DNA from: Macrocystis pyrifera | Lineage: Eukaryota > Sar > Phaeophyceae > Laminariales > Laminariaceae | DNA length: 64,000 nucleotides | Direction of reading: 5' to 3' | Assembly (NCBI GenBank): GCA_031763025.1 | Contig: JASSKH010000021.1 | Coordinates: forward strand, 3,224,001-3,288,000 | Shown here: piece after piece, positions 3,497 through 62,750 of the stretch | Layout of the letters: each line of letters begins with the position of its first letter | Position numbering within the stretch: the stretch's first letter is position 1 | Program-made: the position numbers and the translations under genes | Notes under the pieces: generated by a model | The model's database searches: none | Seen by the model: the letters and a program-made list of their open reading frames with translations, nothing else | Told to the model about the DNA's origin: nothing

Positions 3497-3838
3497 AATA
3501 TTATTTATTTATTTTTATCAATCACTTTTACTTTCCAGCCCACTAGTAGGAGGTTTTACCCTCGACGATCTTCTGGACAAGCCGTGGTCACAGGTGTCGT
3601 CCCTTCTCCCCCCCGGTACGTGCCTTTTATTTTTGTCGCGCTTAGGGTTCAGCATTCCCACTGCTCGTCGATTTTCATCGAATGTAGCCAACTCACGCTT
3701 TCTTTCGCGCTTTCCGCTTATCGATTTTTTTATGTAAGAAAAAGTACCTACGATCGTATGAGCATGCACTCGGTGGGACTTGAACCCACGAAATTGATCT
3801 TGACAGGCACGCGGACCACCTACCAAGCCACCAGAGAC
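3497..3838 (-). mobile_element. SINE1 copy a (tRNA-derived)
   Basis: One of six copies of an about 310-bp SINE (others at 5724, 30467, 54652, 57062 and 59793). The sense strand is minus. The head carries RNA polymerase III promoter-like boxes: an A box around TGGCTTGGTAGGTGG and a B box GGTTCAAGTCC. The body follows, and the 3' end is A-rich (TTTATTTATTTATTTTT on the plus strand here). The head resembles a tRNA with a TGTCAA anticodon loop, so an Asp-type ancestor is possible but uncertain. This copy keeps both boxes. Confidence 0.85.
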
Positions 3839-22464: not shown

Positions 22465-22684
22465 TACGGTATCTGCCCCATGCTTTCGTTGAGTTAAATC
22501 CTTCTGGAGCGACAGTGCTATTTCCCAGGCTGAACAAGAGCTGGTACGGCTTGAAGCAGGCATCGAGACAATGGCATGCGCATCTCACTAGGTGTTTGAT
22601 GTCATTGGGTTTCATTCAGTGCCTGGCTGATGCGTGCGTGTTCCGTTTGATGGAAGAGGGTAGTGTTGTGATGACTATAGTGGT
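22465..22684 (+). pseudogene. Copia B RT, N-terminal piece
   Basis: Encodes part of a Ty1/copia RT: VELNPSG, then LNKSWYGLKQASRQWHAHL (the conserved YGLKQ block) and ADACVFRL, ending at VMTIVV where the gypsy LTR begins. Upstream of about 22465 the homology is lost, so the element is 5'-truncated. In an intact element this enzyme would make cDNA in virus-like particles. Confidence 0.88.
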
Positions 22685-22916
22685 TATGGCCTCTGCCAGA
22701 TGATATCAGCAAGAGGGCTTCCAGCGAGGGACTCCACCAGTCTCGCTGGCCTCGCACTCAGTAAGTCTTGTTCTTAGAGCTTGTATTATCACGGAGTGAT
22801 CCTCATCGGACCACGAGCCAGGTGGCTAGGGGACATCACACAGGATCCCCGGCCACTGCTCCACTCACACATGCGATTACACTGAAACCTCCACGGCTTG
22901 GTATCTTTTGGCTACA
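22685..22916 (-). repeat. Gypsy 3' LTR
   Basis: 232 bp, identical by eye to 27948-28179. On the element strand it follows a short G-rich tract (TTTGGGGGTGC), the probable polypurine tract. Confidence 0.92.
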
Positions 22917-22994
22917 GCACCCCCAAAGCGAGTTCACTCGACACGAACGAGCTTGACAAAACCAAAAAACCAAGACGAAATCGCATGCGGCAAA

Positions 22995-23290
22995 TCACAA
23001 ATCAATGCTGAACTCTGAAGCAATTTTAATCTTGAGCGCACGGGTCATCCGTAATTTGCGCAATTCCTTCACGACGAATTCAGGCGCAGCAGAATAAATC
23101 GACCGCAAAGACTCCCACGTGCGCTCCTCTGCTTCGAAACCATCCCAATCGACCAAGACAATCACCTCGTTGGCATCATCTTCGGCCACATGCACCAAAG
23201 CATTCATGCGGCATTCACCCTGCGCAAAGGAATGTTGGAAAACATCCTTCAGATCAGCGGTGACGTTCAACGTCGCATCCGCATAAAATC
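22995..23290 (-). pseudogene. Gypsy integrase C-terminus with chromodomain-like fold
   Basis: This is the end of the gypsy polyprotein, displaced from the integrase frame by an indel near 23290. It contains EVIVLVDWDGFEAEERTWE, then a segment reading AAPEFVVKEL, which matches the chromodomain pattern (VxWxG, ExTWE, then a C-terminal helix). Chromodomains in chromoviruses bind modified histone H3 and steer integration towards heterochromatin; that role is family knowledge. The TAA stop lies just before the polypurine tract and 3' LTR. Confidence 0.75.
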
Positions 23291-27740: not shown

Positions 27741-27947
27741 AATCCACAGCAGTCCACCTGGACTCTACTGTAATAACGGAGAAACTGCCGCCTGACCTGT
27801 GCGTCCTCCAGCTCCCGGAGCGTCCTCCCCTGCTGTGCGCTTCAAGCCGTTTCGATCCGTCCAACGGGCCAACTGCCTTCCCAGCTGTGACCCAATACTC
27901 CGCAGCCGAAAACTCCTCCAACAGAAGTTCCGCGAATATCTAGATAT

Positions 27948-28179
27948 TATGGCCTCTGCCAGATGATATCAGCAAGAGGGCTTCCAGCGAGGGACTCCAC
28001 CAGTCTCGCTGGCCTCGCACTCAGTAAGTCTTGTTCTTAGAGCTTGTATTATCACGGAGTGATCCTCATCGGACCACGAGCCAGGTGGCTAGGGGACATC
28101 ACACAGGATCCCCGGCCACTGCTCCACTCACACATGCGATTACACTGAAACCTCCACGGCTTGGTATCTTTTGGCTACA
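27948..28179 (-). repeat. Gypsy 5' LTR
   Basis: 232 bp, identical by eye to the 3' LTR. The sequence following it on the element strand (ATATCTAGATATTCGCGG) does not match a standard initiator-Met primer-binding site, and the primer tRNA is unidentified. Confidence 0.92.
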
Positions 28180-29495: not shown

Positions 29496-30011
29496 TGTTG
29501 CCGCGGAGGGACGTGGGAGCAATCTAAAGTACGACGGGTCGAGGCATGCAGCCACGAGTCGTCGGGCGCAGAGTAGTGGCGGATCACTCTATGGGTGTGG
29601 GACTTGCGTTTCATTTAGCAGACAGCTTCAGTCTGCTGAACGTCAAACGCCTGACCAAGGTGTACAACGCATGCCGCGTGGTGGCCAACACCGAGTGTCT
29701 TTAGACGCTACCCAGGCAAGGAAGAGAACAAGTGCAAAACCTAAAAAGTGGATTAAAGGACTAAAAACTAGAGGATTAAAGGATTAAAGGCTAAACCGAC
29801 TGTTCGCTCGCATATACGCATCATTACGCGTGATAACGGGCATAATCGAGTATCTGCATCGCTCGCAATCGAGTTTTTTTGTCATCGTTTGCTTCGCTCT
29901 CGCCTGAGCGAAGCCCTGAAGCCACTGGAACTGCCGAAGGGTCCAACGTACGAACTGAGGAGGCGAGTCAGGTGAGCGTTGACAGCTCACCCCGGGGAGC
30001 TTGCCCTAACA
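29496..30011 (+). repeat. LTR2 copy a
   Basis: 516 bp, about 96% identical to 53557-54072. It starts TGTTGCCG and ends CCTAACA. It contains a perfect 8-bp hairpin (GCTTCGCT 29891-29898, loop CTCGCCTG, AGCGAAGC 29907-29914) and a GGTGAGC / GCTCACC palindrome (29971-29991). It is followed by TGATGAACCC, the same ten bases that follow LTR1 copy a. Confidence 0.85.
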
Positions 30012-30465
30012 TGATGAACCCGGAGATCGACCCAGGCAGGGTCAGGAAGTGGTGATAGGGTTACGAGCACCATGCAGGTCGGAGAGAGCAAGTCACAGGA
30101 GCACCTGCTCGAGGGCTGGTGTCCGCAATAAAAAAATTGGGGGGTTCGGCGAACTGATGGAATCTGATGCTGTTCTGCAATGAATGTTTTGCGGACTTGA
30201 TGGAATCTGATAAAGCGATTGGTTCGGTAAAGCTTGGGCCTGGCGAACTGGTGGAATCTGATGAACATTTGTATGTCGTCGTACGCAGCTGGAAGGCGAA
30301 GGTGAGCGCCCGACAGCCACTGTGGCAATAGACGAGTCGCGGGGTGAGCGCATCTCGGGGGTAGTGCTCAGGGTGACGGTGAGCACTAACGAGCCGGCAC
30401 GGAGCTTTTGTTATACTACTTGGGCCATGCTACTGATCACATCCACGTAGTGACGACCTACAGCT

Positions 30466-30466
<1 letters not shown>
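30012..30466. other. Putative internal leader of the LTR2 element
   Basis: Begins with TGATGAACCC (30012-30021). Contains three diverged copies of a motif around TGATGGAATCTGAT (30156, 30200, 30251). From 30290 it holds small hairpins with GGTGAG loops (GGCG-AAGGTGAG-CGCC and similar), like the array at 47520. No ORF of known type. Confidence 0.5.
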
Positions 30467-30497
<31 letters not shown>

Positions 30498-30810
30498 ATT
30501 CATCACTTTTACTTCCCACCCCACTTGTAATAGGTTTTACCCTCGACGATCTTCTGGACAAGCCGTGGTCACAGGTGTCGTCCCTTCTCCCCCCCGGTAC
30601 GTGCCTTTATTTTTTGTCGCGCATAGGGTCCAGCATTCCCACTGCTCGTCGATTTTCATCGAATGTAGCCAACTCACGCTTTCGCGCTTTCCGCTTATCA
30701 ATTTTTTATGCAAGAAAAAGTCCCTATGAGCATGCACTCGGTGGGACTTGAACCCACGAAATTGATCTTGACAGGCACGCGGACCACCTACCAAGCCACC
30801 GGGGACGCCG
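30467..30810 (-). mobile_element. SINE1 copy c (full length)
   Basis: Starts (plus-strand left) with a 30-T run, the complement of the A tail, and ends at the head GGGGACGCCG near 30810. Both promoter-like boxes are present (B box as GACTTGAACCC on the plus strand at about 30747). The target duplication is not obvious. Confidence 0.88.
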
Positions 30811-32229
30811 TATACTATTATGTCGTATAAAAATGAAAACCTACTACGTGGAACAAACACAAGTGAAATTGAAAAATAAGCTCATCGTGGATGGGTCATA
30901 GACGGTGTTGTAAGAGGTGCATATACGGACAGGAAATGGTTAGGCGGCACGAACGAAGCCAGACAGACAGCCGTAGTTGGACTGCCTGCCGTGTGGCGCT
31001 GCCATTCGCATCTATGGAGCACCTAACCGGCGATGAAATGGCATTGAATTATTCCACGTGAACGGACCAAATCTGCCGTATTAAGGGGAGATACCAGCAG
31101 TAATATGGGATGAGATATCGTGTGCGATTGATTGACGGATTTTATACCAACAACAATATAGGACGTACTGCGGTGATAGTGAACTTATATCTATTTATAT
31201 ACTGGAGAACAAATGAGCGACCCACGGTACTTTTACAGCAGTAGTACATGTACTGCTGTATACATACTGCAGCTGTCGTTGTCGCGTACACCGAAATATG
31301 ATAATCCGCTGTCCTTCGTCATAAGCTGGGTATAGTACTGCTGTATACATACTGCAGCTGTCGTTGTCGCGTACACCGAAATATGATAATACGCTGTCCT
31401 TCGTCATAAGCTGGGTATCGCTCGGCATAGCAAGTGAGCCCGTATCAATATCACACTGGCTTGCAGGTTACCTGTGTTTTCCAGGTAGCTTGTGACTATC
31501 GGCAGGAGCTTGGAACGAGCGGTTGTTTACGATCGTGTTTACGTCCATACGAGCAGACGGAAAGCATCGAAAAGCCGACTGGGTGTGACCAGTTTTAACA
31601 TAACCTTGGAATCGTTTCCCTGGTGCTGATAGGCACGTACAGTAGATAAAATAAATGCTGACGTGATACATGCTGTCGGTCTCGAGCATACAGAAGGGGG
31701 AGGTAGGCTGACACACACCAACGCCCAAAACTATGCATGGAATCTGAGTTGTGATGTATTGGGTCTGCTTCAGCTAGCTCGAGTACTACCTGCGGTGGGC
31801 TGCATAGGTGCGTTTGTCCTGTCAACAGTAGGGCGGTGCCATCAAACTCATGTGAAGTCCTGGCAAGGCAAGCAAAACGTGTCTGCGCTGGCTCCCTGCA
31901 TTGTCAGGAGCATTCAACTGGTACTGGTCAAAGTAGTATCCAAGGCATCGAGCAGTGCCACAAACACTCGTATCTCCAGGCACTGCTGCAATTATATTAG
32001 TAGTTCTAGTATCAACACTAATAAGGAGTAGGAGGTTTATGTCTGATGATGGAAAAAATCGCAAACTGGCGACCTGCAGTGATATGATCACCTGCGAAAA
32101 ATGAGTCGTCGTTCTTTTTACATATGAACGACAAGGTGTGGAAGATCCCGTGAGTAATAACCAATGAATGTGAATGTCCATGATTGTAATAATATTCTAA
32201 AAGAAAATGTGGGTTTTCGTCGGGGTGAA
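30811..32229. other. Gene-poor stretch
   Basis: Apart from the 85-bp duplication at 31251-31420, no recognised feature. ORFs here are short and mostly products of the duplication. Confidence 0.5.
31251..31420. repeat. 85-bp tandem duplication
   Basis: Units 31251-31335 and 31336-31420 begin TACTGCTGTATACATACTGC and are nearly identical. Non-coding. Confidence 0.9.
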
Positions 32230-35200
32230 TGTGTGTCTTCTTCACATTAAACCGTTCTTCTACTCGTCGACATCCAGCAAGCCCAGTGTCCGTGCTGATT
32301 CTTCACCCTAGAAAGATACGAGCTCTGTGGTCACAGACTACGACACAGAGATAACACACCGTAATGCATTAATAGCCTACGTAATACCATGCCTTCGCAC
32401 TAGGTGCGGCCGACACAACATACATACATACGCCAGCAACCAAAATACACCATAAAGAAAGAGAAGCAACGAAAAAACCAAACCGAAAAAGAACAAGAAA
32501 AAGACAAAGAAAGAGAAAAGGAGAAGAATCCCAAATAAATAAATAAAATGGGAAGCCAAAGCTCAGACACATACATACTTACCCCGAGCATGAGCCAAAA
32601 GGGACGTGCAAAGGGAAAGATACGAGAAGGAAAAAGGGGACTATGCATCCCGGTGAACACTTAACTAAGTAAAAAGAGCAATAGTGAGTGGGCCAAAATA
32701 CGCTCGTCACCCACCCACTATGTAGTACTTCTTTCATAAGGATAAGAAGGGAAAAAAATCAAAATGCATACCGAACGGCCGCAGCAGTTGGCGGTACGAG
32801 TAGCAAAGAAAAGTCCTACCTATTAGTCGGCCTGATACCTTGCTACCCTATCTGCGGTCTCTCTGCTACTCTCTTCTACCGCGGTTTCCCTTCTACTCCT
32901 CCTGTTCCCCCCCCTGCCCCCATACACTTGTACGGTGTTCCCTCTACCCCTCCTGCTGTTACCCCTCCCCCCATTCCCTCTAACACTACCTGCAACGGAT
33001 GCACGGCGCTGTCTACTCAGCTTTGCCTCAGCCTCGTGCCACCTGCCCATGAACTGTTCAGCTGCTTCGAGGATTCCCCGGTACCACTTTCCCGTCTGTT
33101 TTGCTGCAGTGGGCCACAGTGCGGTCCTAACTCCAAAGACTAAGGGGGAGTCTTCCGTTGATCCCTCGGTGGCTTTGAACACTCTAAGGTCCTCAGCAAT
33201 GGCCCTAGGCCAAGTCTTGGGCTGCCCGCCTGGTTTCGGGCTCCCCCCACCAGCGATCGTCCCGAACATCAACCGACTGGGCAATCGCCCCTCGTGTTGC
33301 CGCACCACAGCCCCCGCAAAGAAGAGTCGCCGTTTACGGATGGTCGTTTCGATACTTTCGCATCGTGTAATCTTGAACGCCTTCGCATACGAGAGGGTGG
33401 TGTGGTCGGTGCGTAGTCGGCGCTGGAAACCAATGACTCGCAGAAGGACTTCGTGGTGGGCTGATCGAAGCTTGGCGAAGTAGTCCGCATTGAGGGTCCA
33501 CGTCACGCTACCGTACAGCAAGGTCTCAATCACCTCGGCCTTCAGCATCCGGACTTTCAGACTAAGCGGTGCGTTCGTCCTATCGTACAGTTCCGGACTA
33601 TACCGTTTGAGGCATGCCCGCATCAGACGGATTCGTCGCTCGATTTCGAAGGAGAGGTCAGCGCTCTCGTGGATAATTCCTCCTAGGTACAAAAACTGGG
33701 TCGTCTGTTTATACTTTTGGCCTGCAGCTTCGATCGCGAGCGGTGAGGTGGTAAACGTCTGATCCGGTGTTCGTAGGAGCATCGTCTCTGTCTTCTTCTC
33801 GGATACCGTGAGACCTACTGCTTCCAAGACAGTCACGATGACTGTCATCATTCTTGCAAGGCCTTCCGCCGACTTCGAGATTATTCCTGCATCGTCTGCA
33901 TACAACATGCCCCACACAGCCCTTTGCACGCATGCCAGCGGTTCCTCTTTTCCGACAACCCTGCCCTCTTCGAGATGAACCAAATCCCTTACGATGCATT
34001 CGTCTTTGCTGAGGCGTACCAGCACGATGTGTATCGCAGCGGCGAAGAACACGTTGAACAGTAACGGCGATAGTACGCAGCCTTGCCGCAGCCCCTGGGT
34101 TACATTGAACCAGTCCGAGTGTTCACCGTCATCCGCACGCACGCGAGCCCGCATGCCTTCGTGAAAATTGCGAATGATTGTGAGCATCTTGGTTGGTACA
34201 CCAAGGCGTGTGAGTACCTCCCCCACAACAGTTCTCGGTCGACAGAGTCGTACGCTTTCTGCAAGTCGATAAAGCACATGTACAGGGGGATTTTCTTCTG
34301 CCGCCCGAGCTGCTGCAACCGGCGCACGACAAACAGCATATCGACTGTTGACCGTGCGGGGCGGAAGCCGCACTGTTCTTCAGGGAGTATGTGCTCGGTC
34401 TCGCAGTAGCTGCTTAGACGGGACGCAACGATTTTCAGCAACACCTTGCCTGCGTGAGCAACAAGCGAAATACCTCTGTAGTTGTTGCAATCAGTTCTAT
34501 CCTTCTTTTTATGAAGGGTTTTTATGATCGCATCTTTCCATTGCTGGGGGACTTCTCCCGTTACCCAAACGTTAACAAGGATACTGTGAAAATACTGCAC
34601 GAAAGCGGGGTGGTCAAGTTTCAGTACTTCGACCGGGAGACCATCTGGTCCAACGGCTTTCCAGTTTGACATACCCTTCACTGCTTCCATCATCTCGTCG
34701 ATGGGTGGTTCATTTTCAAGGGATAGTTTCAGCGGTCGTGGTGGCACTAGGTCGATGATCGTGGGGTCAAGTTTCAGCGATTTCGTGTTCAATAGTTTGT
34801 GGTAGTGCCCCGCCCATCTTTCACGAATTCGCGCTTGATCCCGCAACAGCGTGCCATCCTCGTCCATGATAACCTGTTCACTCCTCGCTTTCGTACCTTG
34901 CAACCCTACCGTACTCTTCAGGTGCTTGTAGAACCCTCGTTGATCGGAACTCGCGAGGAATTTCTCGGTTTCAGCGAGGTACTCTTCAAAAGACGCGTTG
35001 ACTCCTGCGGCGACCACTTCCTGCAGATTCGCACAGGCGGATCTCAACTTCTTCCACGCTGTACTATCTCGGGGGTAGACACGCAAGAGCTGTCTCGCAT
35101 CCTCCCTCGCTGCCCATGCTACTTTGAAAGCGGCCACCCTTTCGGGGGTCTCACACCAACCGTTTCGGTGGTGGCGACGTGGTGGAGGTGGCACCTCTTT

Positions 35201-36712: not shown

Positions 36713-37457
36713 GTAGACGAGGCGTAATTACGTACCAAGTACTGATATGATTTCACTATATACTTGGACATTCTGATAATATGATCGTACTGTTTGTTTG
36801 GTAGTATTACACCCTCGGGCATATCTCCTACCAGGTTTCCTCGTACAGCACGTACATACGGCAATGTACTACCTCTGTGCCACCGAGATAGGACTATTAT
36901 TAGGGACATGAAGTAAGCGAAATACAAAGTGTGGTGAGAGCATAGCCCATGCTGGGATGACAAATAATCGGGGCGTGTTTTCAATGTCTATGCTGAACAA
37001 TCTTGAAAGGTCAAAGAGTGAGCGAAAACCGCAAGTCTGGCGACCTCAAAAATATATAATGTTAATAGTACACGTCCACAGGCAGCATATGGACGGCGAG
37101 CCAGTTTTGTTTGTTTTGCGCTGCCTAGCCCATATCAGTTCTGGGGGGGGGGAGCACGGTTGACGAAAACGGGGAAGAGACGGCAGACAGGATAGCTACT
37201 TATGTTGGTATCAGATCGATTAATAGTATATAAAAAACCTGTCGATGCAACTCGTACCACAAACTGCTGCGGCTGTTGTGCTTCGGTTTACCTACTATTT
37301 TCTTGGTCTTACTCTGTATAGTATAGCGCGTGTTGTGATACTGCTGTCTATTTTCCTGGTTCTTGTGTCATCTGCCACATCTCCTCGGGGGGCACGACAC
37401 GTGGTTTATATTATACCGAGTATGTTCGTATTTCCTAACGCGTACCGTTACGGGGGA
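36713..37457. other. Spacer between head-to-head LINEs, with a diverged LINE tail
   Basis: Contains about 37130-37410, which resembles the A1 3' UTR at low identity (GTTGACGAA, GGCAGACAGGATAGC, CTCGTACCACAAACTGCTGC, CTTGGTCTTACTCTG, TCTGCCACATC). This suggests a third, older LINE subfamily. A G-run is at 37143-37151. No gene seen. Confidence 0.5.
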
Positions 37458-39910: not shown

Positions 39911-40165
39911 TGTTCGTTTGGATCGTTCCAGCAGCGACGGTTACAAGTTGTAGAGGGTTGCGTATATCTTCGCAGGCGTTATTATGAATTAAGCCGTGTG
40001 TTCACGAGGAGAGTTTGAGCACTCCGTTCTCTGCTCCGTTCTCTGCTCCGAGCTACGAGCTAGGCTCCGCTCTCTCTCCCCTCCTCTGTCCTCTAATACA
40101 ACGATTATAAAGAAACTCATCAGACCACGTGGTGGTCAGGGCATCCAGGCTTGAATCTACGAACA
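39911..40165 (+). repeat. Copia A 5' LTR
   Basis: 255 bp, ends TGTTCGT / ACGAACA. Contains a short internal duplication (CTCCGTTCTCTGCTCCG). A TGGTACCAGAAGC sequence, loosely like an initiator-Met primer-binding site, lies about 27 bp downstream rather than adjacent. Confidence 0.92.
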
Positions 40166-40210
40166 CACTAGTGCTCTTGAACGTTTGAGGTCTGGTACCA
40201 GAAGCCCACG

Positions 40211-41088
40211 ATGCCCTCGAAGGGATCGGCTCAAGAAGAGTGCGACTCTCCAAGTGAAATTGAAACGCTTCGACGCGAGATCGAACTGGCGATGGAGAAC
40301 AGCGAGGCGTCGATGCTGAACGCCATGAGGGAAATGATGACCGAGTTCATGAGGAACAACGGTCGATCGAAGCCAGGCAGCGCTGAAGGCAGCGTTGCTG
40401 TAGGAGAAAGTCCAGCAGAGGTAGGAACCATTGCTGTAGGGGAAAGCCCAAGCGGGGCAGTACCCATTGCTGAAGTACGAGAGACTACTGCTGCTGGTGA
40501 AGCAGGCATTGGTCGATCGGAGTCCGGCAGCGCTGAGGGTAGCGCTGCTGTAGGGGAGAGCCCACAAGGGGCGGTACCCACTGCTGTAAGAGAGATTTCA
40601 GCAGAACATGAGACAAATTTGCGTGAGTGCGCCTCGCCAGATTTGGGAGCAACTGGACGCGGAAGAACTGCGTTGCCTGTCGAGGTTGGCCCACCGAGGG
40701 GTCATCCAGACCAGCATGGGAGGACAGGAGGATGGGGTGCATACCCTGGCGGTGAGTTAGGTGGTGGATTTGATCTGCCTCTATCGCGCCATTTGGCCTT
40801 CAAACACACTCCTGTGCCATCGTTTAGTGGGCTAAAATCTGAGTTCAACCCCTGGACAAGAGATGCTCGGTATTACGCCAAAGGAGTTGGTTTCTGGTCT
40901 GCTTTCGTGCCGGATCCACCACAGTACATTCCCGTAGGGGAATTAGACACCGAGACGATGGGTTCGTCTCAAGGGGGCGCCGTGGACGCCTCCTCGGTCC
41001 CGGCACGTGGGGTTTTGACCTGGACGCGTTTATGCTGGAGCGCGCACAGCAGGCACCTGCCGCCGGCGAGGCCGGCGGCGAAACACCC
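40211..41088 (+). pseudogene. Copia A gag-like N-terminal region
   Basis: ATG at 40211 (MPSKGSAQEECDSPSEIETL). A helical, coiled-coil-like start (residues 15-55) is followed by three about 35-residue repeats around GSAEGS and AVGESP (residues 58-140), then Gly/Pro-rich linker sequence. Then comes HLAFKHTPVPSFSG with EFNPWTRDARYYAKGVGFWSAF, a capsid-like segment. I do not recognise the family, but position and composition fit a copia Gag. A first, isolated VNTR unit starts at 40952. A frameshift between it and 41089 moves the reading to the frame GFDLDAFMLERAQQAP. No CCHC zinc knuckle is visible. Confidence 0.7.
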
Positions 41089-41592
41089 GAGACGATGCGT
41101 TCGTCTCAAGGGGGCGCCGTGGACGCCTCCTCGGTCCCGGCAGGGAGGGCCGAAACACCCGAGACGATGCATTTGTCTCAAAGGGGCGCCGAGGACGCCT
41201 CCTCGGTCCCGGCAGGGAGGGCCGAAACACCCGAGACGATGGGTTCGTCTCAAGGGGGCGCCGTGTACGCCTCCTCGGTCCCGGCAGGGAGGGCCGAAAC
41301 ACCCGAGACGATGGGTTCGTCTCAAGGGGGCGCCGTGGACGCCTCTTCGGTCCCGGAAGGGAGGGCCGAAACACCCGAGACGATGGGTTCGTCTCAAGGG
41401 GGCGCCGAGGACGCCTCCTCGGTCCCGGCAGGGAGGGCCGAAACACCCGAGACGATGCGTTCGTCTCAAGGGGGCGCCGTGGACGCCTCCTCGGTCCCGG
41501 CAGGGAGGGCCGAAACACCCGAGACGATGGGTTCGTCTCAAGGGGGCGCCGTGGACGCCTCCTCGGTCCCAACAGGGAGGGCCGGAAACGAC
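41089..41592 (+). repeat. 72-bp coding VNTR (7 units) inside copia A
   Basis: Units start at 41089, 41161, 41233, 41305, 41377, 41449 and 41521. Each encodes 24 residues, ETMGSSQGGAVDASSVP then AGRAETP. Variation between units is mostly single-base. The period keeps all six frames open, so long antisense ORFs here are artefacts. The sense frame is the same as that of the downstream RT, separated from it by one TAA at 41734-41736. Confidence 0.95.
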
Positions 41593-41736
41593 CCGGGCGC
41601 AGCATCAGCCTCCGACACCGTCCAAGGGAACGGTGAGGATCCCCCCGCGATCCTGTCGGGGAGGACCGCACACGAGCTCAGCAGCTGGGGCCGGCTCCCC
41701 CCGACTGTACGGGGCCGGACCCGGGGTCAAAGCTAA

Positions 41737-43511
41737 CGCCTGGAGGGTGAACCTGCTGTGCACCAGGTAAGGATGGATGAAGGAGCCGCAGACGCGCTGT
41801 TTGCGGCAGCGTACGAGTCGTGGACGAAGCCTGGGAGTATGCTGGATCGTACGCCTCGGACGACGGAGGACGCAGTGGCTTTGATGGCCGGAGGACCTGC
41901 TGCAGAGAACAAAGGGGAGTTGAGCGTGTGCATGCCGAGTGGTTTCCCGGAAGACGAAGAACCGCCCCCACAGTCCGTAGCAGATGTAGAGCGTTCTCAA
42001 TACAAAGCGGCGTGGCACGAGGCCATGAAAATTGAGTTGGACGGTCACAAAACGACCGGTACGTACGAAGCCGCGACACCGCCAAAAGGGCGGAAACCTG
42101 TAGGTGCGAAGTGGGTGTTTACCTACAAGACGGATAAGGATGGCTTGATAGTAAATACAAAGACCAGACTTGTGGCTAAGGGTTTTAGCCAGGTGCAGGA
42201 TGTAGATTATTTTCAAACGTTTGCACCGACTCCCTCGTCAGCGTCAGTTAAAATTCTGGCGGCTGTTGCAAATGAACATGGTTTTAAGATTTTTCATCTA
42301 GACGTCGCACAAGCTTTTGTTCGCGCGAAACTCGACGCCGAGATATACATGAAACTGCCCGGTGGGTGTGGTGACATGTCAGGAAAGATCGTCCGCCTAC
42401 ACAGATCACTGTATGGTCTAAAGCAAGCAGAGCGGACGGCAGTGGGCCGGATTATTGGTAGAGACCGTGGTAGAGTACGGAATGGAGCAGTGTAGGTCTG
42501 ACCCGTGTGTGTTTGGCATGGCTGTGGACGGCAAGGTAGAACTGATCATGGCCGTTCATGTAGATGACATCGTGATCGCAGGATCGGATGAGACATGTAG
42601 AGATTTCCATGCCGCGCTAGCTATGAAATTTCCCACGAATAACCTTGGCGAGCTGACTTGGTACACTGGTTGTGCTTTCAAACGCGACTGGGAACTGGGG
42701 ACATTGGAGATTACGCAGAAGGCGTTCATTGAGAGCATGCTGAATCGTTTTGGTGTTAACTCATCCTCTGATATCCCCGCGACCCCCGGTGTGGAACTAG
42801 GTCCAAGAGAGGAGGGCGAACTTGGAGGAGACTGGCCGTACAGGGAGGCTGTGGGCAGCTTGATGTGGCTGTCGACCATGACGAGGCCGGACGTCTCGAA
42901 CGCTGTGCGTGCTGTGGCGCGAAACTCCCACAACCCAACGGAGAGGCACTGGAAGGCAGTTTTGAAGATTATGGCTTACCTCCACGGGACCAGGTTTATG
43001 GGATTGACTTTTGTACGGGGCTCGGGTTTGGATTTGACTGCGTATAGTGATGCTGATTATGCGGATAAGTCGAACGATAGGCGCTCGGTATCGGGGACGG
43101 TAATTACCCTAGGGGGTGCGGCCGTCAGTTGGGCAAGTAGTACGCAGAGGTGTGTTACGTTGTCGACAGCAGAAGCAGAGTATGTCGCCCTGGGTGAAGG
43201 GGTGAAGGAAGCTTTGTTTACGGGCGCGGTGTTGTCGTTTATCTGTCCAGAGCTAAGCGGATCATGTGTCCGGGTTTTCGAGGATAACCAGGGGGCCATA
43301 GCGTTGGCTGAAAACCCTCTTAGTTCTGCTCGGAGTAAGCATATCGACGTGCGTTTTCAATTGTCAGAGAGCTACTTCGTGCTAAGAAGATCGACATTCA
43401 GTTCGTAGCTTCGGAAGAGCAGCACGCGGATATTTTGACGAAATCCCTTGCTGCGACCCCTTTTAAGTCTCATCGTAGGTTCTTGTTGAATCTGCCTTTG
43501 GAGGGTGAGTG
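41737..43511 (+). pseudogene. Copia A reverse transcriptase and RNase H
   Basis: RT opens with QYKAAWHEAMKIELDGH, then KPVGAKWVFTYKTDKDG, TRLVAKGFSQVQDVDYFQTFAPT, LDVAQAFVRAKLDAEIYMKLP and LYGLKQA. A frameshift follows near 42432. The next frame has DPCVFGMA, AVHVDDIVIAG (catalytic DD), VGSLMWLSTMTRPDVSNAVRAVAR, and RNase H blocks YSDADYADKSNDRRSVSG, TLSTAEAEYVAL, FEDNQGAIALAENP and SKHIDVR. A second frameshift near 43360 precedes HADILTKSLA. All key copia RT/RNase H blocks are present, so the source element was functional in this part. Confidence 0.92.
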
Positions 43512-43826
43512 AGGGGTATGAGCATTATTCGATGAGTGCCATGTTTGAGTGATGCGAGGAAAAAATTGTCAGGTCGCCAACCCTGCGCTACTTTGAGGGG
43601 CATGGGGGAGTAGGGCACCGCTTGGCATTTTATTTTCTGGCCATGGTCATCGTTTGGAATGCGGCCGTTGTTTCAATTGCAATGGTTTGGAGTATATGTG
43701 TTATACAGGGGGTTTTGACCCGGTGGCCGGGTTTCCTCCTGCGGGACTGTCGTTGGCTGTTCTTAGATCCTAGCAAGTCTTGAATGTCTTTTCGGTCTCG
43801 TCACTGCTGTGAAGAGCCAGGGAGCG

Positions 43827-44082
43827 TGTTCGTTTGGATCGTTCCAGCAGCGACGGTTACAAGTTGTAGAGGGTTGCGTATATCTTCGCAGGCGATATTA
43901 TGAATTATGCCGTGTGTTCACGAGGAGAGTTTGAGCACTCCGTTCTCTGCTCCGTTCTCTGCTCCGAGCTACGAGCTAGGCTCCGCTCTCTCTCCCCTCC
44001 TCTGTCTTCTAATACATCGATTGTAAAGAAACTCATCAGACCACGTGGTGGTCAGGGCATCCAGGCTTGGACTCTACGAACA
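43827..44082 (+). repeat. Copia A 3' LTR
   Basis: 256 bp, about 97% identical to the 5' LTR. It is preceded by a purine tract GAAGAGCCAGGGAG. The 315 bp before it (43512-43826) are the non-coding 3' region of the element. Confidence 0.92.
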
Positions 44083-46119: not shown

Positions 46120-47519
46120 CGGTACGAAATAGAGTCGTTTTATTACGTTGATCTGTTCGGTCTTAACAACCATATTTCACCTCTATTCGGATCGCATAAC
46201 CTTGAATCAACCACACATCTTTGGAGCCGGGATAATGGGGCCTGAATAAGGCAAACTCCCTGTTAATATGTAGCTATACCATATAGTCATCAAACTTGCG
46301 CCTTATTATTAATAGGACTGCTGTAGCAGCATGAACTACAGCAGTTTATGCCTACGATTATTCATAAATAGCGGCATATAGTCAAGTATCGGTATGTATG
46401 AAGTACAGCAGTATTCACCTACGAATAAGAAAACCTGCTTCGAGCGCCACACTTAAACCTACAGTAAACACCTAAACGAGTACCAGGTATGAGCGGACAT
46501 GTTGCCCTGCTGGACGGACCGTACAAAGATATCATGATAAATTACATACTACCACTACGAACTGGGCCAGCCTTCCAACGCACCTGGTTTTGTCAATGTG
46601 GTGTCATAAGCACACAAAACAAGGGGGGGAGGTTGATAGGTTGCTTTGTTTGGGTGAGTATGAGGTATACATTATCGCATACGCGACGGTAAATGTTCAA
46701 TGCTGCAAGGGTAGCGATAACGATGGACCTGGCACAAAATTGAGTACTGGTACGCAGGAACCTCGAAAACCTAAGAAAACAAAGTAGCCCATCAGAAATA
46801 CAACTGAGTAGCAGGAAGAGTGCTTGGCTGAATTAGGTGCACCACAGGTTGTGTTAGTAGTTGACGATTCAACCACAATACTGCTGATTATCAAGCGAGT
46901 ATAGTCCTCTGCGTGCATTGCTGTAGTTCGTGGTGGTACACTATTGTTGTTATTTTGCTTGCCCGTCAAAAACAACCCTGGTGCATGGAAAATAAGGGAG
47001 CGATACAGAAAGGACCACACTCGGTATGCACCCACGCAAACGTCCTCACTAGGTATATACACGGTGATCTGACAACTTTTGTTAGTCCGTGGCTTCCGCT
47101 GTGGAGCAGGGATGAACTAAAGCCACACACACAGTACACAGACCTTGCACGAACTGACAACGATAATACCACAGCAGCAGCGTAAGATTAGCACAACGGT
47201 GGCAATATACCGGTATTCTGCACCTGTTGCTCGGGAGTGAGTTGCCATCTTTGCACGCGTTCATGTTATTCACAGCCTGATTTGCACGTATCAACCATAG
47301 GGGTTGTATGCTAGTACGTTTAGTATTCTTGGCACAAAAGGAAGCGTGGGATGTTGTTCGAGTTGCATGACGGATAGTACTCTGGGCCTTCTTGGTATGA
47401 TAGCATGCCTGAGATATTGGCATGACGGCTGTTGTTGGGGTTGTATAACAGTATGCTTGGTACTCTTGGGATGATAACATTCTGGGGAGTGAGAACTTGT
47501 CATTACTAGCGGGCAGGAT
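46120..47519. other. Left arm of inverted duplication, non-coding
   Basis: From about 46320 this DNA is the inverted counterpart of 62750-63140, for example CGAATAAGAAAACC near 46423 against GGTTCTCTTATTCG near 62947, and GAGCGGACATGTTG against CAACATGTCCGCTC. The arms are diverged (roughly 75-80%). No gene recognised; a G-run is at 46623-46629. Confidence 0.6.
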
Positions 47520-47870
47520 GGCGAGGTGAGCGCCCCCGCGGACTGACCTCAGTGAAGGTGAGCACTGATGAGCGTAGCGCCTTGCAAGTGAAGGTAAGCA
47601 CTTGTCATTGTGCTATCGCTGAGAGGGGAGGTGAAGGTGAGCCCTTCCCTCAGGATTGGATGATGTGGGGATTCCAGGAGTTCGGCAGGTTTGTGTGCTG
47701 TTGAGTGTCATGGGGTCTGGTTTTGTGGCGAGGTGAGCGCCCCCGAGGGTTGAGTTCAGTGAAGGTAAACACTAAGGGCATACCTGGTAGCATTTTGACA
47801 GTGAAGGTGAGCACTTGTCGTTATAGGGGCAGATGATGGTGAGCTCTCCCCTGAGACGCGAGTTTTGGTG
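47520..47870. repeat. Hairpin array HA1 with conserved AAGGTGAG loop
   Basis: Eight or so small hairpins share a loop (A)AGGT(G/A)AG but have different self-complementary stems. Examples: GGCG-AGGTGAG-CGCC (47520-47534), TCAGTG-AAGGTGAG-CACTGA (47549-47568), CAAGTG-AAGGTAAG-CACTTG (47585-47604), GGCG-AGGTGAG-CGCC (47727-47741), AGTG-AAGGTAAA-CACT (47758-47773). A GGGG..CCCC hairpin with GATGGTGAGC in its loop is near 47826-47851. Inverted copies lie at 61897-62745. Confidence 0.85.
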
Positions 47871-48030
47871 GGTGTGTGGGGGTTTTGGTTTGTGTTTACT
47901 CCGTTACATAATCAGTAATGGGTATCATAGCATCATACCACTTACAACTTGAATGCACTCACTGTGGTTACATAACGGGTAATTGACACGACAGCACCGT
48001 ACCACTTACAACTTGACGCATTCATTTTCG

Positions 48031-48860
48031 CTCAGACGACGTGAGGTGTGCCGTCGTTAACCCCTTTAGTACCGCAGTCCCGATTTGGGGACAAACCAGT
48101 CTAATTCCAAGTGATTTGTCCCCAAAACGGGACTGCGGTACTATAAGGGTTAAGGAAAAGTCTATGTCACTTATGCTCAGACGACGTGAGGTTATGTGCC
48201 GTCGTCAGGGCAAAGGTTGTGCTACTCATGGTATTGAATACTACAGCACCGTACCACTTACCACTTACCACTTAGGTACATTCACAGCAGTTATGTACCG
48301 TCGTCAGGGCAAAGGCTGTGCTACTCATGGTATCGGATACTACAGCACCGTACCACTTATCACTTGGATACATCCACAGCAGTTATGTGCCGTCGTTGTG
48401 GCAAAGGCTATGTCACTTGTGCTCAGACGACGTGAGGGTATGTGCCGTCGTTAGGGCTAAGGCTGTGCCACTTATTCCCAGACGACGTGAGGTGCTATGC
48501 CGTCATTGTGGCAAACGGCTCTGCCAATTTGGCCTAGGCGACGTGAAAGTTTGGGCCGCCGCTGCGCCAAAGGAAATACCTTGTTTGATCAGCCGACGTG
48601 ATATTGTGTGTCACCGTCATAGCAAAGGCAGGCGGTGGGAGGCAGCTCCCGGCGCCGTAGCAGTGTGCTACACCTAATTTATTGTCCGGACGCTGTACCA
48701 CGTTCGCCCAGCCGACGTGAGGTAGTGTTATGTCGTCACTGTGGCAAACGGCTGTCATTTTGGCCTGGAAGGCGTGAGGTTTAGCGCCGCCGCTGCGGCA
48801 AAGGATTTGCCACGTTAGCGCAGACGACGTGAGGTTGGGGGGCGTCGTCAAAGGCGGGCA
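48031..48860. repeat. Hairpin array HA2 with conserved TGAGGT loop
   Basis: Imperfect tandem units of about 55-60 bp. The core is GACGACG-TGAGGT(n)-CGTCGTC, then RGGCAAAGGCTGTGCCACTT. Clear hairpins: 48036-48057, 48180-48206, 48823-48849. One unit has a changed but still paired stem: GGCG-TGAGGTTTAG-CGCC (48771-48788). Some units lack the first half (48290-48310). Non-coding; short ORFs are by-products. Confidence 0.85.
48057..48153. mobile_element. 89-bp MITE with TTAA target duplication
   Basis: TTAA at 48057-48060 and 48150-48153 flank 48061-48149. The ends are about 35-bp imperfect inverted repeats: CCCCTTTAGTACCGCAGTCC on the left, the complement of GGACTGCGGTACTATAAGGG on the right, each continuing through CCC/GGG and TTTGGGGACAAA. 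TTAA targets and CCCTTT-like ends are hallmarks of piggyBac-type elements. The insertion interrupts an HA2 unit at GCCGTCGTTAA. Far too small to encode a transposase. Confidence 0.85.
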
Positions 48861-49870
48861 GTGGGTGGCCGAGGATGATACCCTGCCCTGTAGCAATGTG
48901 TATGTATCTGACATCTGTTTTTCCACGAGTATTTGGCCTGGGTGCTCCGATATCAGACGCGCAAAGAGCTCTGTATGACCTATAAAGGGCACCTGGTTGG
49001 CCTATTGCGCCGGTTCGTATTTTGACACAGCTCTGTGCATGACATTGACGAGCAAGCACGCACGTGCGCGCACCGTATCCGGGTGCGGTCGCGTAGCTTG
49101 TCACTACAGCAGTTTGGATGTTGCCCACGATGAACTAAGGAACTGCAAGTCCTCTTTCAGTACAGTGTGTAGTACTGGGGGTATCCATACATACAAAGTA
49201 ACGGTACAAAGAAATGCTGCACTATCGTTCAGGTGTGCACCAAACAATTGTTTCTGTACGTGATTGATGTTTTTGCAGAGCCTATCTCTGCTTAATGCAC
49301 GAATATCCAAGAGTTAATACCATTAATATGCACTTGTGCGGTGGTGTGTTTGATTTGGTGTGCAGATGAGTTTTTCAATTGTTCCAAGCACGCTCTCACG
49401 TACCACCGTATCCTGATTGCTGCAGTTTTCAGGAGGATGAACGACGGAAGGAAAAACGAAACATAAAGGGGATATATCTAAGTGTGTCTACATGTTAAAG
49501 TTAAACCCCCTACGTACACACCTGCGCATATTTATTCGGAACGTCTTTAAACACCTATGCAGACCGTCTGATACGCGCTTCGAGCCAGGAAATAAACCGC
49601 GTTACCGGGTATAACAACGGTAATATGTGGCCGGAACGAAATGGTTGAATACGCTAATCGAGACGGTACTGAGTGTAGGATGCAGAATGTATGCCTGACA
49701 CAGAATCCGAACCGTATCCACGACACCAGGAATCGGCCAAAGCAACAGTTTAGCGTTCCACCGAAAATAGTTGTCGTTTATCCAGTGGATGTGTCACAGT
49801 GATAGACACAGGACAGAGTGGATGAAGTTATTCTTCGATGTCTTGCGTTCGCTCAGCCGAGTGAAACGCA
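48861..49870. other. Gene-poor stretch
   Basis: No recognisable coding sequence, RNA gene or repeat. Confidence 0.5.
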
Positions 49871-50092
49871 AGGGGGGGCGGGGAGAGCACATCCAAGGTA
49901 AGGGGATTACTGCTGTCCACCCAACCCTTGGCAGAGAATGTCTTAGATAAGGGGACTACTGTACTTTGGGCGGTCAACCCAAGGGGGGGGGGGCAGAGCA
50001 CATCCAAGGTAAGGGGATTACTGCTGTCAACCCAACCCTTGGCAGAGAATGTCTTAGATAAGGGGACTACCGTACTTTGGGCGGTCAACCCA
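49871..50092. repeat. About 111-bp tandem duplication
   Basis: Two near-identical units share AGAGCACATCCAAGGTAAGG, CAACCCTTGGCAGAGAATG and TTTGGGCGGTCAACCCAA, each preceded by a G-run (49872-49878 and 49983-49992). Non-coding. Confidence 0.9.
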
Positions 50093-53000
50093 ACCCGGGG
50101 TTGGGTCGCTCCTACCTAGGATGAAAACGCGCATCTACGTGAAGGATATCCAAGGTAAGGATTTCTGTGAGCGGTCGTGGAGTTCTCCTACGAGGAAGAG
50201 GTTAATAGGTTAATCAACACCAAGGTACATGGGTGATTCAGGAAGCGGACAATCGACCCCAAGGTGAAGACGTTGGAAGTAATAAAACAATCGACTCCAA
50301 AAGCATATAGGGATCGCTCCGAAACGCGAAGCAGACGAGAGTGGAGTTCCTATTCTCCTGGCGACCGTCCTCCAAGATCGAATGCTCGAAAATAATGTGA
50401 AAATGATGGGAGGCGGCTCTATGAGTTAATTGATTGCCACAACCCTTGAGAAATTCGGGAGTGTGATCAATGTCGCGAAAGCAGAAGGCTTTTTAAACTG
50501 TGTGCCACTCTTGAGGCAAACTAGGAGGGTCATCAATGAGACACAAAGGCTACTGGATCCGGAATTATCACGGATATGGCGAAGAAGGTAAGTAGAGCCA
50601 AGCCCAACGAAACCGGAGTTAAAGGTAACCGGCCCCAGAGCCACCACGGGTACTACGAAGGAGGTGACAGAGTCACGCTCAACGAAGTCAGAGAGAACGG
50701 TAACTGGCTGGTAAACGGCGCCCAACGCTAAGAATGGACCGGCGTGTCTCGACAACTATTTGCACGAGTGGGAGTGGCCAATTCAGGGGTAAGTCCATAA
50801 CACTACAAGATCAACGCTATCCTCAACTTGCTCAGGCCAACGTACTGGGAAAGGTGAGCCCCTTGGTTAGCGTGGCATGGTACCGGTGAGCACGTGCCTC
50901 AATACCGGCCACTAGCACAACGAACGAACCTGTCCCGGCCAGACAGAAACATCCAACACATGCGAGTGATTGAGAACAAAGAAAGGGTATCGCCAGGTAC
51001 ACACGAACACCGAGCGTGCCATCGAGTGTAAGGTCGCCTTGAGTCAATCAGGCAAGAGTCAATCAGGCAAAGCTGGGCGGTCGTCCGCGCCACAGGAGGT
51101 GAGTGCGCTGTTGAGGTCGGTGAACTAATTTAGACGGTTTGTCTGGGGAAGGGAGTTGCCCGTCGTCGACTCGGCTGTTCAAAAGTCAGAGACTTTCCTG
51201 CATGCGGCGCAGAAGAGATCTGCGATTCATCGAATGGGCCACGGACCTGTAGTAGTCACCCTGAGCTCGTCACCTGCTCCCGAATACCTGGTCAAGGCTG
51301 GCGTGTTCTGCTTTGAGGTGATAGGTTCAGGGAGGTTTTTCCAGACAATGCACCTTGTGGTCAAACGTACTGAGGTCCGGAGGGACTAGCATCGGACGGA
51401 TTTATCCTTGCAGCGCTTGTTGCAGACAAAGGTATTGCACCGGCAACAGAGAGTGATACAGGAATTAGAGGCAAACGTATTGTGTACACATCAGGTGCCT
51501 ACTGTTACGCATGCATACAACCTGTAAAAACGCGCTCGAAACCAGATAATTAACCGCGTTGTGACCCCCATAACATGCCTGATCAATCAACTTCGATGGT
51601 TGTTAAGACGACTGCAATTACGGAAACTTGTGACATTCTTGATGTTGCCGAGTCACTACTGCCGTAGCTGTGGATTATCTCCAAGGGCGACGAGACGGCA
51701 CGAGGGGCTCGTAAGCCAACCCTCTGCCCTATCAACCCAAGTAATCGATACAGTGCAGAATTCGCGTCTGTTAAAGGGAGATCATGGAAGAGGTTCTTCC
51801 ATGGTGGAGTGCTGCCACGGAAACACGAATATTCTTAGTCGGGCCTGTGGGTCAGGTGAAGAGGCAAAGATGAAGATGGATGGTACTTGCAATACCACGA
51901 AGGTATACGCCGGCAAACTCTTAATAACGAGGACTCAAAGCTAGCTACATTGAAGCCATTGATACCGGAGTTGTTCGCCTTGGTTCGCAACACGTTTGGT
52001 GGTCTGGGCGTGGCATGCCCAACTTTTCTGACCCAGGGCAAGCGTAAGTAGCCCACGTTAGCCAAGGACGTAAAGTATGTGCTCTTATATAAGCGCAGGA
52101 GTAGCAAATGGGTGACCACGTAAGTGGTAGTATCACTCACTATTATTGCACCCTACAATCGTGGAAGGTCCCTGAGATGTACATATCAGACCTTCAGCAG
52201 GGGCTGCAAGCAGGTAATAGTTTCGAGTATGTGTTGTCCTTGGTGGAAGAAGCGAGCACATCTTATTCTCACGTGTCCTGTGCCGTCGCAGGAGGCACTC
52301 GCGGCAAAATCTCACACTGAGCGATGTGCGTTTCGGAATCGCTATTGTTGGACCGGGGCGATGCAGGGGGGGAGTTTACAGCCGTGAACCCCCTGTGCCA
52401 GTCGCTAAGAGTGTCGGTGTGCTACGGTCTCGTCAACCACACCCGAGGGCAGGGATCTGTCGAACTATGCGAGAGTGGCTACAGAAAGCATTATCGGGAC
52501 TCTGCAAGTCTTCACCTCTTCAGTGAACCGAAGAAGTACTCTCCGAGTGATGGATTCGGCGTTTCACCCCAGGTCTTTACCCACCATGCGTTCTGTTTAC
52601 GTTAGTCAGGCCCGTCACTGATGGGTATCAGGCCGAGGCTAAACGTTTGTCATGCCTGCCATTGATTATTGTGATGCCTGTCATTGCGTTTGACAAAGTT
52701 TACGTGAACGGGTGCATTGCCAAACCGAGGACGACGGTCTTCGCAGTGGGCATCACGACATTTCATGAATGCTCCGACCTGGCAATGCCGTCGATATGGC
52801 TCGCGCACCTGGTCGGGGGATCGGATAGAAGACTTGCCGAGAAATACACTTTGGCGGAAACCGTTGTACACGATGACCGATCGCAAGCTCTCGGGGGACG
52901 TCGCAAACACGTGAGTATGCAAGTACGTTTTAACTGGGTTGACTGGAATCTTCGACAGTATTACTCAGCTGCAGCTGCACGTATTCCTGGTGGACACACG

Positions 53001-53556
53001 TAAGTATGGGAGTAGCCTCCGGATGAGGTGAGTACAGGTTTCACTTCCAGGCAGCTGTATAGATTTCACGCTTTGTATGGACTGCACCAGGGATCAGACT
53101 GCCGTTCTCGCCCGCCGGAGATATCAATAAGGAAAGAGCGAGAAACAGCTTCCAGAGTAGCGAGCGAGACACACCGGCTAGATACCAAGGTCCGCAGGGA
53201 GTTTCCAGACGTTCGAAGGCGGCAAACGTTCATCGAAGAAGTGTACGACGTCAGCCATTAATCGCGGTGAGTGGGGTGTCCAGATAGCAGTTCAAGCGTC
53301 ATGTTTAAACTGGAGGGAGCAGCTGGCGACAACTTCAGCCTAAACCGTTCGTTCAAGCGGTGGGTCTGGCTGGAAATTGGAAGAACATATGGAGGAGTGG
53401 AATCGCCGGAGCTACAGTGGAGGAAAGCCTAAACCGTTGGTCCAAACGGCGGGTCTGGCGGGGATGGAATGGGCAGGGGGGGAGAAAGGGGAGGAGCTCC
53501 GTCATCCGGGGCCGCGCTTTCTTAAGATCTCGAAGATAGCACCAGACTTGGGGGGG
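50093..53556 (+). pseudogene. Degraded copia-like internal region before LTR2
   Basis: Weak, multiply frameshifted coding signal on the plus strand. About 50430-50585 reads ATTLEKFGSVINVAKAEGF and onward to a stop. 52210-52400 reads SLVEEASTSYSHV and, after a break, AGGEFTAVNPLCQSL. The second resembles the copia integrase segment containing GGEF and the catalytic Asp region. 52690-52880 reads like a diverged post-integrase region. Donor-like GGTAAG/GGTGAG sequences are scattered through it. The position directly before a polypurine tract and LTR2 fits the 3' part of an LTR2 element, but RT and RNase H are not seen. Family assignment is tentative. Confidence 0.4.
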
Positions 53557-54072
53557 TGTTGCGGCGGAGGGACGTGGGAGCAATCTAAAGTACGACGGGT
53601 CGAGGCATGAAGCCACGAGTCGTCGGGCGCAGAGTAGTGGCGGATCACTCTGTGGGTGTGGGACTTGCGTTTCATTTAGCAGACAGTTTCAGTCTGCTGA
53701 ATGTCAAACGCCTGACCAAGGTGTACAACGCATGCCGCGTTGTGGCCAACACCGAGTGTCTTTAGACGCTACCCAGGCAAGGAAGAGAGTACGTGCAAAA
53801 CCTAAAAAGTGGATTAAAGGACTGAAAACCAAAGGATTGAAGGATTAAAGGCTAAACCGACTGTTCGCTCGCATATACGCATCGTTACGCGTGATAACGG
53901 GCATAATCGAGTATCTGCATCGCTCGCAATCGAGGGTTTTGGTCATCGTTTGCTTCGCTCTCGCCTGAGCGAAGCCCTGTAGCCACTGGAACTGCCGAAG
54001 AGTCCAACGTACGAACTGAGGAGGCGAGTCAGGTGAGCGTTGACAGCTCACCCCGGGGAGCTTGCCGTAACA
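53557..54072 (+). repeat. LTR2 copy b
   Basis: 516 bp, ends TGTTGCGGC / GCCGTAACA. It is preceded by a G-run (53550-53556) that fits a polypurine tract, so this is probably a 3' LTR. It differs from copy a (29496-30011) at about 20 positions. It carries the same 8-bp hairpin (53952-53975). Confidence 0.85.
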
Positions 54073-61639: not shown

Positions 61640-62750
61640 TCTAAAAGGTGGCACGGTTCTCTAGTATCCTTTACCCAACATGTACCCATGGTGAGTGCAT
61701 CTAAATTGAAGGTGGTACGATGCTATAGTATCCATTGCCGATTATATAACGGAGTAAACACAAACCGAAAAAGTGGCACGGTTCTCTAGTATCATTTACC
61801 CAACACGTACCCATGGTGAGTGCATCTAAATCGAAGGTGGTACGATGCTATAGTATCCATTGCCGATTATGTAACGGAGTAAACACAAACCGAACCCCCC
61901 CCCAAACCTGACAAAACACACCTCTCAGGGGAGAGCTCACCATCATCTGCCCCTGCAATGGCAAGTGCTCACCTTCACTGTCAAGGTGTTATGTCCTCAG
62001 TGCTTTTACCTGCACTGAACTCAACCCACGGGGGCGCTCACCTCGCCACAAACCCAGACCCCTGCGCACTCAGCAGCACACAAGCCTAACAGACCCCTGG
62101 AAAACCCACAGCATGCAAACCTGAGGGAGGGGCTCACCTTCACCTCCCCTCTTGGCGATAGCATAATGACAAGTGCTTACGTGCACTGTCAAAGGTGCTA
62201 CACTCATCAGTGCTCACCTTCACTGAGGTCAATTGTCGGGGGCGCTCACGTCGCCAGGCCGCCTGCTAGGAATGACAACGTGCTCACCCCCCATCATGCT
62301 AGCATACAAAAAGTACCAAGTTATCTATAAACCCCACCCAACACACACGTTTCAAGGGAGAGCTCACCATCATCTGCCCCTGCAATGACAAGTGCTCACC
62401 TTCACTGTCATGGTGCTATGCCCTCAGTGCTTACCTGCACCGAACTCAACCTACGGGGGCGCTCACCTCGCCACGAACCTAGACCCCAGGACACTCAGCA
62501 GCACACAAGCCTATCAAACCTCTAGAAAACCCACAGCATGCAAACCTGAGGGAGGGGCTCACCGTCACCTCCCCTCTTGGCGATAGCATAATGACAAGTG
62601 CTTATGTCCACTGTTAAGGTGCTACGCTCACCAGTGCTCGCCTTCACTGAGGTCAATTGTCGGGGGCGCTCACCTCGCCAGGCCGCCTGCTAGGAATGAC
62701 ATCGTGCTCACTCCCCGGCATGCTACCATTCTGAGAGTACCACGTAATCT
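61640..62750. repeat. Inverted, internally duplicated copies of the 47.5-48.0 kb region
   Basis: 61650-61890 holds two about 120-bp units corresponding in reverse to 47880-48010 (GTAACGGAGTAAACACAAACC against GGTTTGTGTTTACTCCGTTAC). 61897-62330 and 62340-62745 are two tandem copies, in reverse, of hairpin array HA1. They keep paired stems around the loop CTCACCTT: CAGTG..CACTG, GGCG..CGCC, AAGTG..CACTG-like. Confidence 0.8.

Follow-up and report, generated by a model that had tools for sequence, protein, structure and literature searches.

A conserved array of same-loop hairpins inside a putative gene-less LTR retrotransposon of the giant kelp

The window analysed here, a 64,000-nucleotide stretch of the Macrocystis pyrifera genome (contig JASSKH010000021.1, positions 3,224,001 to 3,288,000, forward strand), contains a cluster of short hairpins that carry nearly the same loop on stems of different sequence. 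What element carries this cluster, and does the repeated loop serve a partner? An earlier note on this DNA had claimed at least six such hairpins in 350 bp; motif scanning and local folding gave eight, between 47520 and 47853. They belong to two diverged units of about 130 nt, with four hairpins in each.

47518..47653, + strand: array unit A, with hairpins h1, h2, h3 and h4
47520-47534, + strand: h1, unit A
47549-47568, + strand: h2, unit A
47571-47620, + strand: h3, unit A, inner stem 47585-47604
47623-47651, + strand: h4, unit A
47725..47854, + strand: array unit B, with hairpins h1′, h2′, h3′ and h4′
47727-47741, + strand: h1′, unit B
47758-47773, + strand: h2′, unit B
47797-47819, + strand: h3′, unit B
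47824-47853, + strand: h4′, unit B

The hairpins are real. Local folding was carried out on ten single hairpins, namely seven of the eight of the array (h1′ left out) and three leader hairpins described below. All seven array hairpins have a loop of 7-8 nt closed by a G-C pair, and the 3′ end of this loop reads GGTRAG in six of them and GGTAAA in the remaining one, h2′ of the window, where most other copies keep GGTAAG. By its sequence h1′, outside the folded set, has the same stem and loop as h1. When array and leader are taken together, nine of the ten folded hairpins have the G-C-closed loop of 7-8 nt, the exception being the third leader hairpin in its MFE structure, and eight of these nine loops end in GGTRAG. 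The stems are GGCG/CGCC, TCAGTG/CACTGA and CAAGTG/CACTTG, and those of h4 and h4′ are two different purine-rich helices, so that the central observation of the earlier note, a constant loop on differing but complementary stems, holds.

As a null for this pairing, every position of L030, a full-length copy of the carrier element, was scored for contiguous flanking pairs. At least four such pairs are found at 3.4% of random positions, and six at 0.43%. In the window array there are 4 for h1, 6 for h2, 6 for h3, 4 for h1′, 4 for h3′ and, by the motif scan, 4 for h2′; h4 (1 pair) and h4′ (2 pairs) fail the scan because a bulge adjoins their closing pair. An additional helix of 10 bp encloses hairpin h3 of unit A (z −3.3, 0 of 200 shuffles). 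The word AGGTRAG occurs 32 times on the two strands of the window for 14.3 expected, a number reached by 0 of 100 shuffles. Folding energy of whole units is ordinary (z −1.5 for unit A, +0.4 for unit B, +1.3 for the leader), and the evidence for structure is therefore that of the local hairpins, three of which out of ten have a z weaker than −0.7 (h1, −0.66; h4′, −0.61; leader hairpin l2, −0.47). A strong fold of the neighbouring region 48020-48900 (z −5.3) proved to be due to a nested fold-back insert, 48150-48900 alone giving a z of 0.09. This insert, at 48060-48148, is MITE-like, about 90 bp long with 45-bp arms that are 89% complementary; it is missing from the copies compared and has, by eye, a TTAA-like target.

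Similar hairpins had been claimed around 30298-30395, and three were indeed found there, between 30295 and 30388. The LTR just upstream, called LTR2 in the earlier note, is to be corrected to the 5′ LTR of the carrier element (29496-30011), past which these leader hairpins lie at about 0.3 kb.

30295..30310, + strand: leader hairpin l1, GGCG-AAGGTGAG-CGCC
30334..30356, + strand: leader hairpin l2, GCG/CGC with outer GAG/CTC, loop GGGTGAG
30362..30388, + strand: leader hairpin l3, a 9-bp MFE stem; alternatively an AGTG/CACT stem whose larger loop contains GGTGAG

The 9-bp MFE stem of l3 absorbs part of the motif. Exact leader words are present in the genome in 73 copies (l1) and 65 copies (a second word), against 0 for each reversed control, and many of them lie about 0.3 kb past LTRs among the matches listed. 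A model built on the array units matches the leader weakly (best 17.5 bits, E 0.0034).

The carrier element is an LTR retrotransposon about 10 kb long with 516-bp LTRs, and the array itself begins about 3.6 kb inside it. The window copy spans 29496 to 54072 and is interrupted by a SINE-like insert, LINE copies and a nested Copia-like element.

29496..30011, + strand: 5′ LTR (TGTTG...TAACA), 96% identical to 53557-54072
about 30467-30809: SINE-like nested insert, preceding internal piece 2
30810..32230, + strand: internal domain, piece 2, colinear with L013, L020, L023, L026, L029 and L030
36729..37444, + strand: internal domain, piece 3, 91.6% identical to L030 1528-2233, stranded between nested LINE copies
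46122..53556, + strand: main piece of the internal domain, sense frames without Pfam match
53544..53556, + strand: polypurine-rich tract, preceding the 3′ LTR, at the same place in L030
53557..54072, + strand: 3′ LTR, pairing with the 5′ LTR at 96% identity

L030 lacks these inserts and measures 9.84 kb, with a 4-bp target duplication. The LTRs are direct repeats with TG...CA ends, and target duplications of 4-5 bp were read in seven of eight LTR pairs, that is L030 and six further pairs of which the end pieces only were used (four duplications found by script, two by eye, on C219 and, with 5 bp, on C220). The flanks of the window's own LTR pair gave no target duplication on reading, and no standard primer site starting with TGG was seen by eye directly past the 5′ LTR. 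In the genome, the LTR has at least 41 matches (40 of 433 candidates scored).

No Pfam family was found at E 0.1 in the six sense-frame translations of 46122-53556 and 30810-32230, a scan that left aside pieces 30012-30466 and 36729-37444. At E 0.01, the sense frames of L028, L015 and L019, three loci of 10 kb that belong to other families, gave none either. In L030, the sense stop-to-stop frames do not exceed 159 codons. A search with ten long frames chosen from the loci gave two matches, a gag-like one in antisense and one to a sulfotransferase, neither of which reached Pfam's cut-off. Among the loci read, none proved to be an autonomous partner that carries the array. These observations fit a gene-less, non-autonomous, LARD-like LTR retrotransposon of the giant kelp, and the anatomy of array and element is well supported.

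The genome searched comprises 537,376,219 bases in 223 contigs. The motif was found 405 times, against 8 for its reversed control, and the array gave at least 47 matches (40 of 213 candidates scored). Four copies measure 9.8-11.0 kb from LTR to LTR, and in these the distance from the start of the 5′ LTR to that of the array is 3.6-3.8 kb; the number of units per copy varies (L018, L019, L024, L030). A 20-mer of the h1 core had one bacterial match in genome_contigs, taken as chance, and none in viral_contigs.

Five groups were set among 20 loci; L002-L007 and L009 were left out as overlapping larger loci, L008 holds a partial unit only, and L018, L019, L024 and L008 were omitted from one of the locus analyses. 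F1 has 11 loci, including the window copy and L030; F3 consists of L015/L016, F4 of L017 and F5 of L014. F2, a second, related element family, consists of L019, L021, L024, L025, L028 and a minus-strand copy in the window at 61.2-63.8 kb, with the following units.

62546..62681, − strand: F2 unit A
62352..62474, − strand: F2 unit B
62121..62257, − strand: F2 second unit A
61925..62049, − strand: F2 second unit B

The array is kept by the four related families, and in three of them (F2, F3 and F4) conservation, measured as identity to F1 in 100-base bins, peaks there, an extra unit in L030 lowering the bins after 4050. F2 is 80-93% identical to F1 in the three array-core bins, against 49-83% before the array and 17-80% past it, where an 800-base stretch is missing in F2. 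For F3, identity is 72-78% in the array, 70-73% in two bins just upstream and 0-63% elsewhere, its LTR matching that of F1 weakly (67%); for F4 it is 77-89% in the array and 38-81% elsewhere. F5 shows no clear peak at the array in such bins. Upstream of the F2 hairpin array of L021, positions 1556-3810 hold a tandem array of units of about 197 bp.

Do the stems covary, as the earlier note had it? Within a hairpin class they do not: compensatory change does not exceed the shuffled level. The set comprised 47 copies of unit A (43 distinct) and 43 of unit B (40 distinct), left from 48 and 45 once a unit A of L027 with the same sequence as the unit next to it and two rows of unit B shorter than 100 nt had been dropped; five partial unit matches were dropped as well. 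Covariation scores were 0.067 for unit A and 0.043 for unit B, for shuffled means of 0.067 and 0.042, and pairs had changed on both sides in 1 of 35 cases (unit A) and 2 of 25 (unit B). By both measures, each class thus consists of duplications without independent compensatory changes, the very outcome that the note had named as speaking against its reading. Pairing was barely above that of shuffles, with 89.5 against 89.2% of cells in unit A (17 of 500 shuffles as high) and 96.0 against 95.9% in unit B (123 of 500). Slid controls had 32-61% of cells paired, against 89.5% and 96.0%; the paired share shows fit rather than selection, because the structure was derived from one of the sequences. 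The stem differences exist between the classes (h1, h2, h3, h4, h4′ and the three leader hairpins) and are old. The interpretation in the note is thus partly supported: the constant loop, the differing stems, the excess over chance, the position near the LTR and the retention across families hold, and the covariation does not.

Substitutions were counted by parsimony on trees of all 48 unit A and 45 unit B copies. On these small trees, and with site categories of our own choice, loop-core and stem sites change less on internal branches (internal to terminal 72:161, against 251:376 at other sites, one-sided p 0.008; p 0.04 against spacers and other loop sites alone), which lends mild support to the idea that the core and stems may be under constraint. 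In the set of 47 and 43 units, G-U and A-C events on internal branches number 20 and 14 (p 0.20), and 28 and 28 on terminal branches, plus 35 other changes. A strong G-U lean was seen only in h2 of unit A (10:1), among eight classes examined.

The same loop on several stems looks like a handle gripped by some protein or RNA partner. We favour a role in the RNA of the element because hairpins lie past the LTR, because one loop recurs on stems of different sequence, and because conservation peaks at the array. Our tentative reading is that the array, a conserved internal module of a non-autonomous LARD-like element, may act at the RNA level, where its hairpins would recruit helper Gag in a packaging-like manner; the RNA level, the protein partner and packaging are parts that we infer. 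Each stem would present the same 7-8 nt loop, ending in GGURAG and closed by G-C, most likely to the Gag or nucleocapsid of an autonomous helper element, and this binding would bring the gene-less transcript into virus-like particles. The packaging signals of hepatitis B virus are of this kind, with multiple stem-loops and one core-protein recognition motif in the loops (PMC7612645, in the part available). The LTRs, target duplications, polypurine tract, lack of Pfam matches, the genome counts of the motif (405 vs 8) and leader words (73 vs 0 and 65 vs 0), the conservation in F2, F3 and F4, and the slower change of core and stems on internal branches count for the packaging reading. Counting against it are the lack of covariation within classes, of a clear G-U excess over A-C and of a peak in F5, as well as the ordinary unit folding energy, the lack of an array-bearing autonomous partner among the loci read, and a sense bias outside the array that holds in F1 but not in the F3, F4 and F5 loci (see below). 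In retroviruses, packaging signals are usually found close to the 5′ end, and the reading is weakened because the main array lies 3.6 kb in. A more specific form, a modular multivalent array in which one octamer loop on unrelated stems, both past the LTR and 3.6 kb inside, would draw the Gag of another element, is conceivable but doubtful. A kissing of the array loop with a complementary stretch at the LTR end was dropped, this stretch not being conserved in the F3 LTR.

We rank recognition of the array by Gag or another protein first, before structure without present function, a U1 or donor platform, and a DNA role. An old hairpin-rich sequence spread by tandem duplication and element amplification could have left inherited structure without present function, and several results agree with this: units A and B are duplicates, their number varies between copies, compensatory changes are absent within classes, and terminal changes look neutral. 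We hold it nevertheless to be rather unlikely, as the array is a conservation peak in three of the four families compared with F1, core and stems are slower on internal branches, one loop is common to several stem classes, and the leader repeats the same theme. In a test against the 5′ splice-site core AG|GTRAG, all array cores fit, reading on the sense strand as GGTRAG or a close variant. The loop might present a 5′ splice-site motif that binds U1 snRNP without splicing, which may spare a long transcript early polyadenylation or splicing, or retain it in the nucleus. At the place of donor position +3, the loops of the classes have either A or G, in keeping with the donor consensus. Moreover, donor-like GTRAGT sites are present on the sense strand outside the array (window 50587 and 51098, and also L030, L017 and L014), at least two of them being conserved from one family to another (that at window 50587 also in L017 and L014, that at L030 6802 also in L017). 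For foamy virus, suppression of polyadenylation by U1, along with a contribution of RNA structure, has been reported (PMC3694450, in the part available). Yet at position +6, where a donor has T, the array mostly has a C that pairs within the stem, and loops of 7-8 nt would be tight for a long U1 duplex. L030 has 23 GGTRAG on the sense and 4 on the antisense strand (15:4 without the array), but the sense to antisense counts outside the array are 5:4 in F3, 7:8 in F4 and 4:4 in F5, so that the F1 bias is not general, and we consider a U1 platform unlikely.

The perfect short dyads would also form on DNA, and the strand test of G-U against A-C fails to separate RNA from DNA; a cruciform, or a DNA-binding protein (a silencing, integration or replication factor) reading the dyad and its fixed centre, could then be at work. 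This is improbable, however: the conserved centre is not palindromic and keeps a constant orientation to the LTRs in four simple copies, and LTR elements integrate through their LTR ends rather than internal sites. The colinear inverted similarity of 46381-48639 with 63008-61602 might have made the array copies the terminal inverted repeats of a 16-kb DNA transposon (46.4-63.0 kb), a proposal that is contradicted and has next to no chance of being right: each arm comes from an element family of its own, these two families are found separately elsewhere, and the family of the left arm is bounded by LTRs with target duplications.

How does the putative Gag-recruiting module compare with known systems? 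LARDs (large retrotransposon derivatives), such as Sukkula of grasses, likewise have LTRs and a long core domain without protein products, together with assumed trans-mobilisation and a well-conserved RNA structure (PMC7215508, in the part available). That part does not mention a same-loop hairpin array, and the hosts are grasses rather than kelp. TRIM elements, of which Cassandra is an example, are also LTR elements without protein-coding capacity, but their LTRs are short and the internal domain is nearly absent (same part of PMC7215508). In the kelp element, the Pfam scan of two pieces and the frames of L030 indicate the long non-coding internal domain of a LARD. LARD LTRs are several kb long, whereas those of the kelp element, of about 516 bp, lack this length. 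Dispersed packaging signals, as known from RNA viruses and hepatitis B virus, share with the array multiple stem-loops and one recognition motif in the loop (PMC7612645, in the part available); they were tested with core or coat protein, whereas the kelp sites are candidates and form tandem units. If the Gag reading is true, the array would be a eukaryotic retroelement counterpart of these signals. In dispersed packaging signals, too, the stems differ. The three leader hairpins just past the LTR resemble those of retroviral leaders (psi and the splice-donor hairpin), and the GGTRAG core is donor-like as in the latter; unlike in a retroviral leader, the main kelp array is repetitive, 3.6 kb downstream, with no gag gene found behind it.

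Our literature search, with most subscription papers and repeat databases outside it, gave no report of such a hairpin array and no LTR elements with packaging hairpins; among brown-alga LARDs, no title concerned such elements, and the words LARD, hairpin and stem-loop were absent from the main text, as available, of the Ectocarpus transposon paper. To our knowledge, little is known of how the machinery of other elements picks out gene-less LTR elements, and a same-loop hairpin module at many genome places would be a concrete cis element for this selection. Were U1 the partner, we would be dealing with a naturally occurring array of structured decoys for donor sites.

Other elements of the window were also recorded. 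Between 32230 and 46119, the stranded piece 36729-37444 has on its two sides LINE copies of opposite orientation that share 98% identity. ARAGORN found no tRNA in the 64-kb window, which leaves a tRNA origin of the SINE-like insert hypothetical. The nested Copia-like element (39911-44082) has an RVT_2 match and 256-bp direct repeats that are 97% identical (39911-40165 and 43827-44082); its 519-codon frame, without Pfam match, contains a 72-bp tandem repeat of 7.2 copies at 41079-41595. A Gypsy-type element on the minus strand (22684-28179) has two long overlapping frames, and its 233-bp terminal repeats are identical, so it is probably young.
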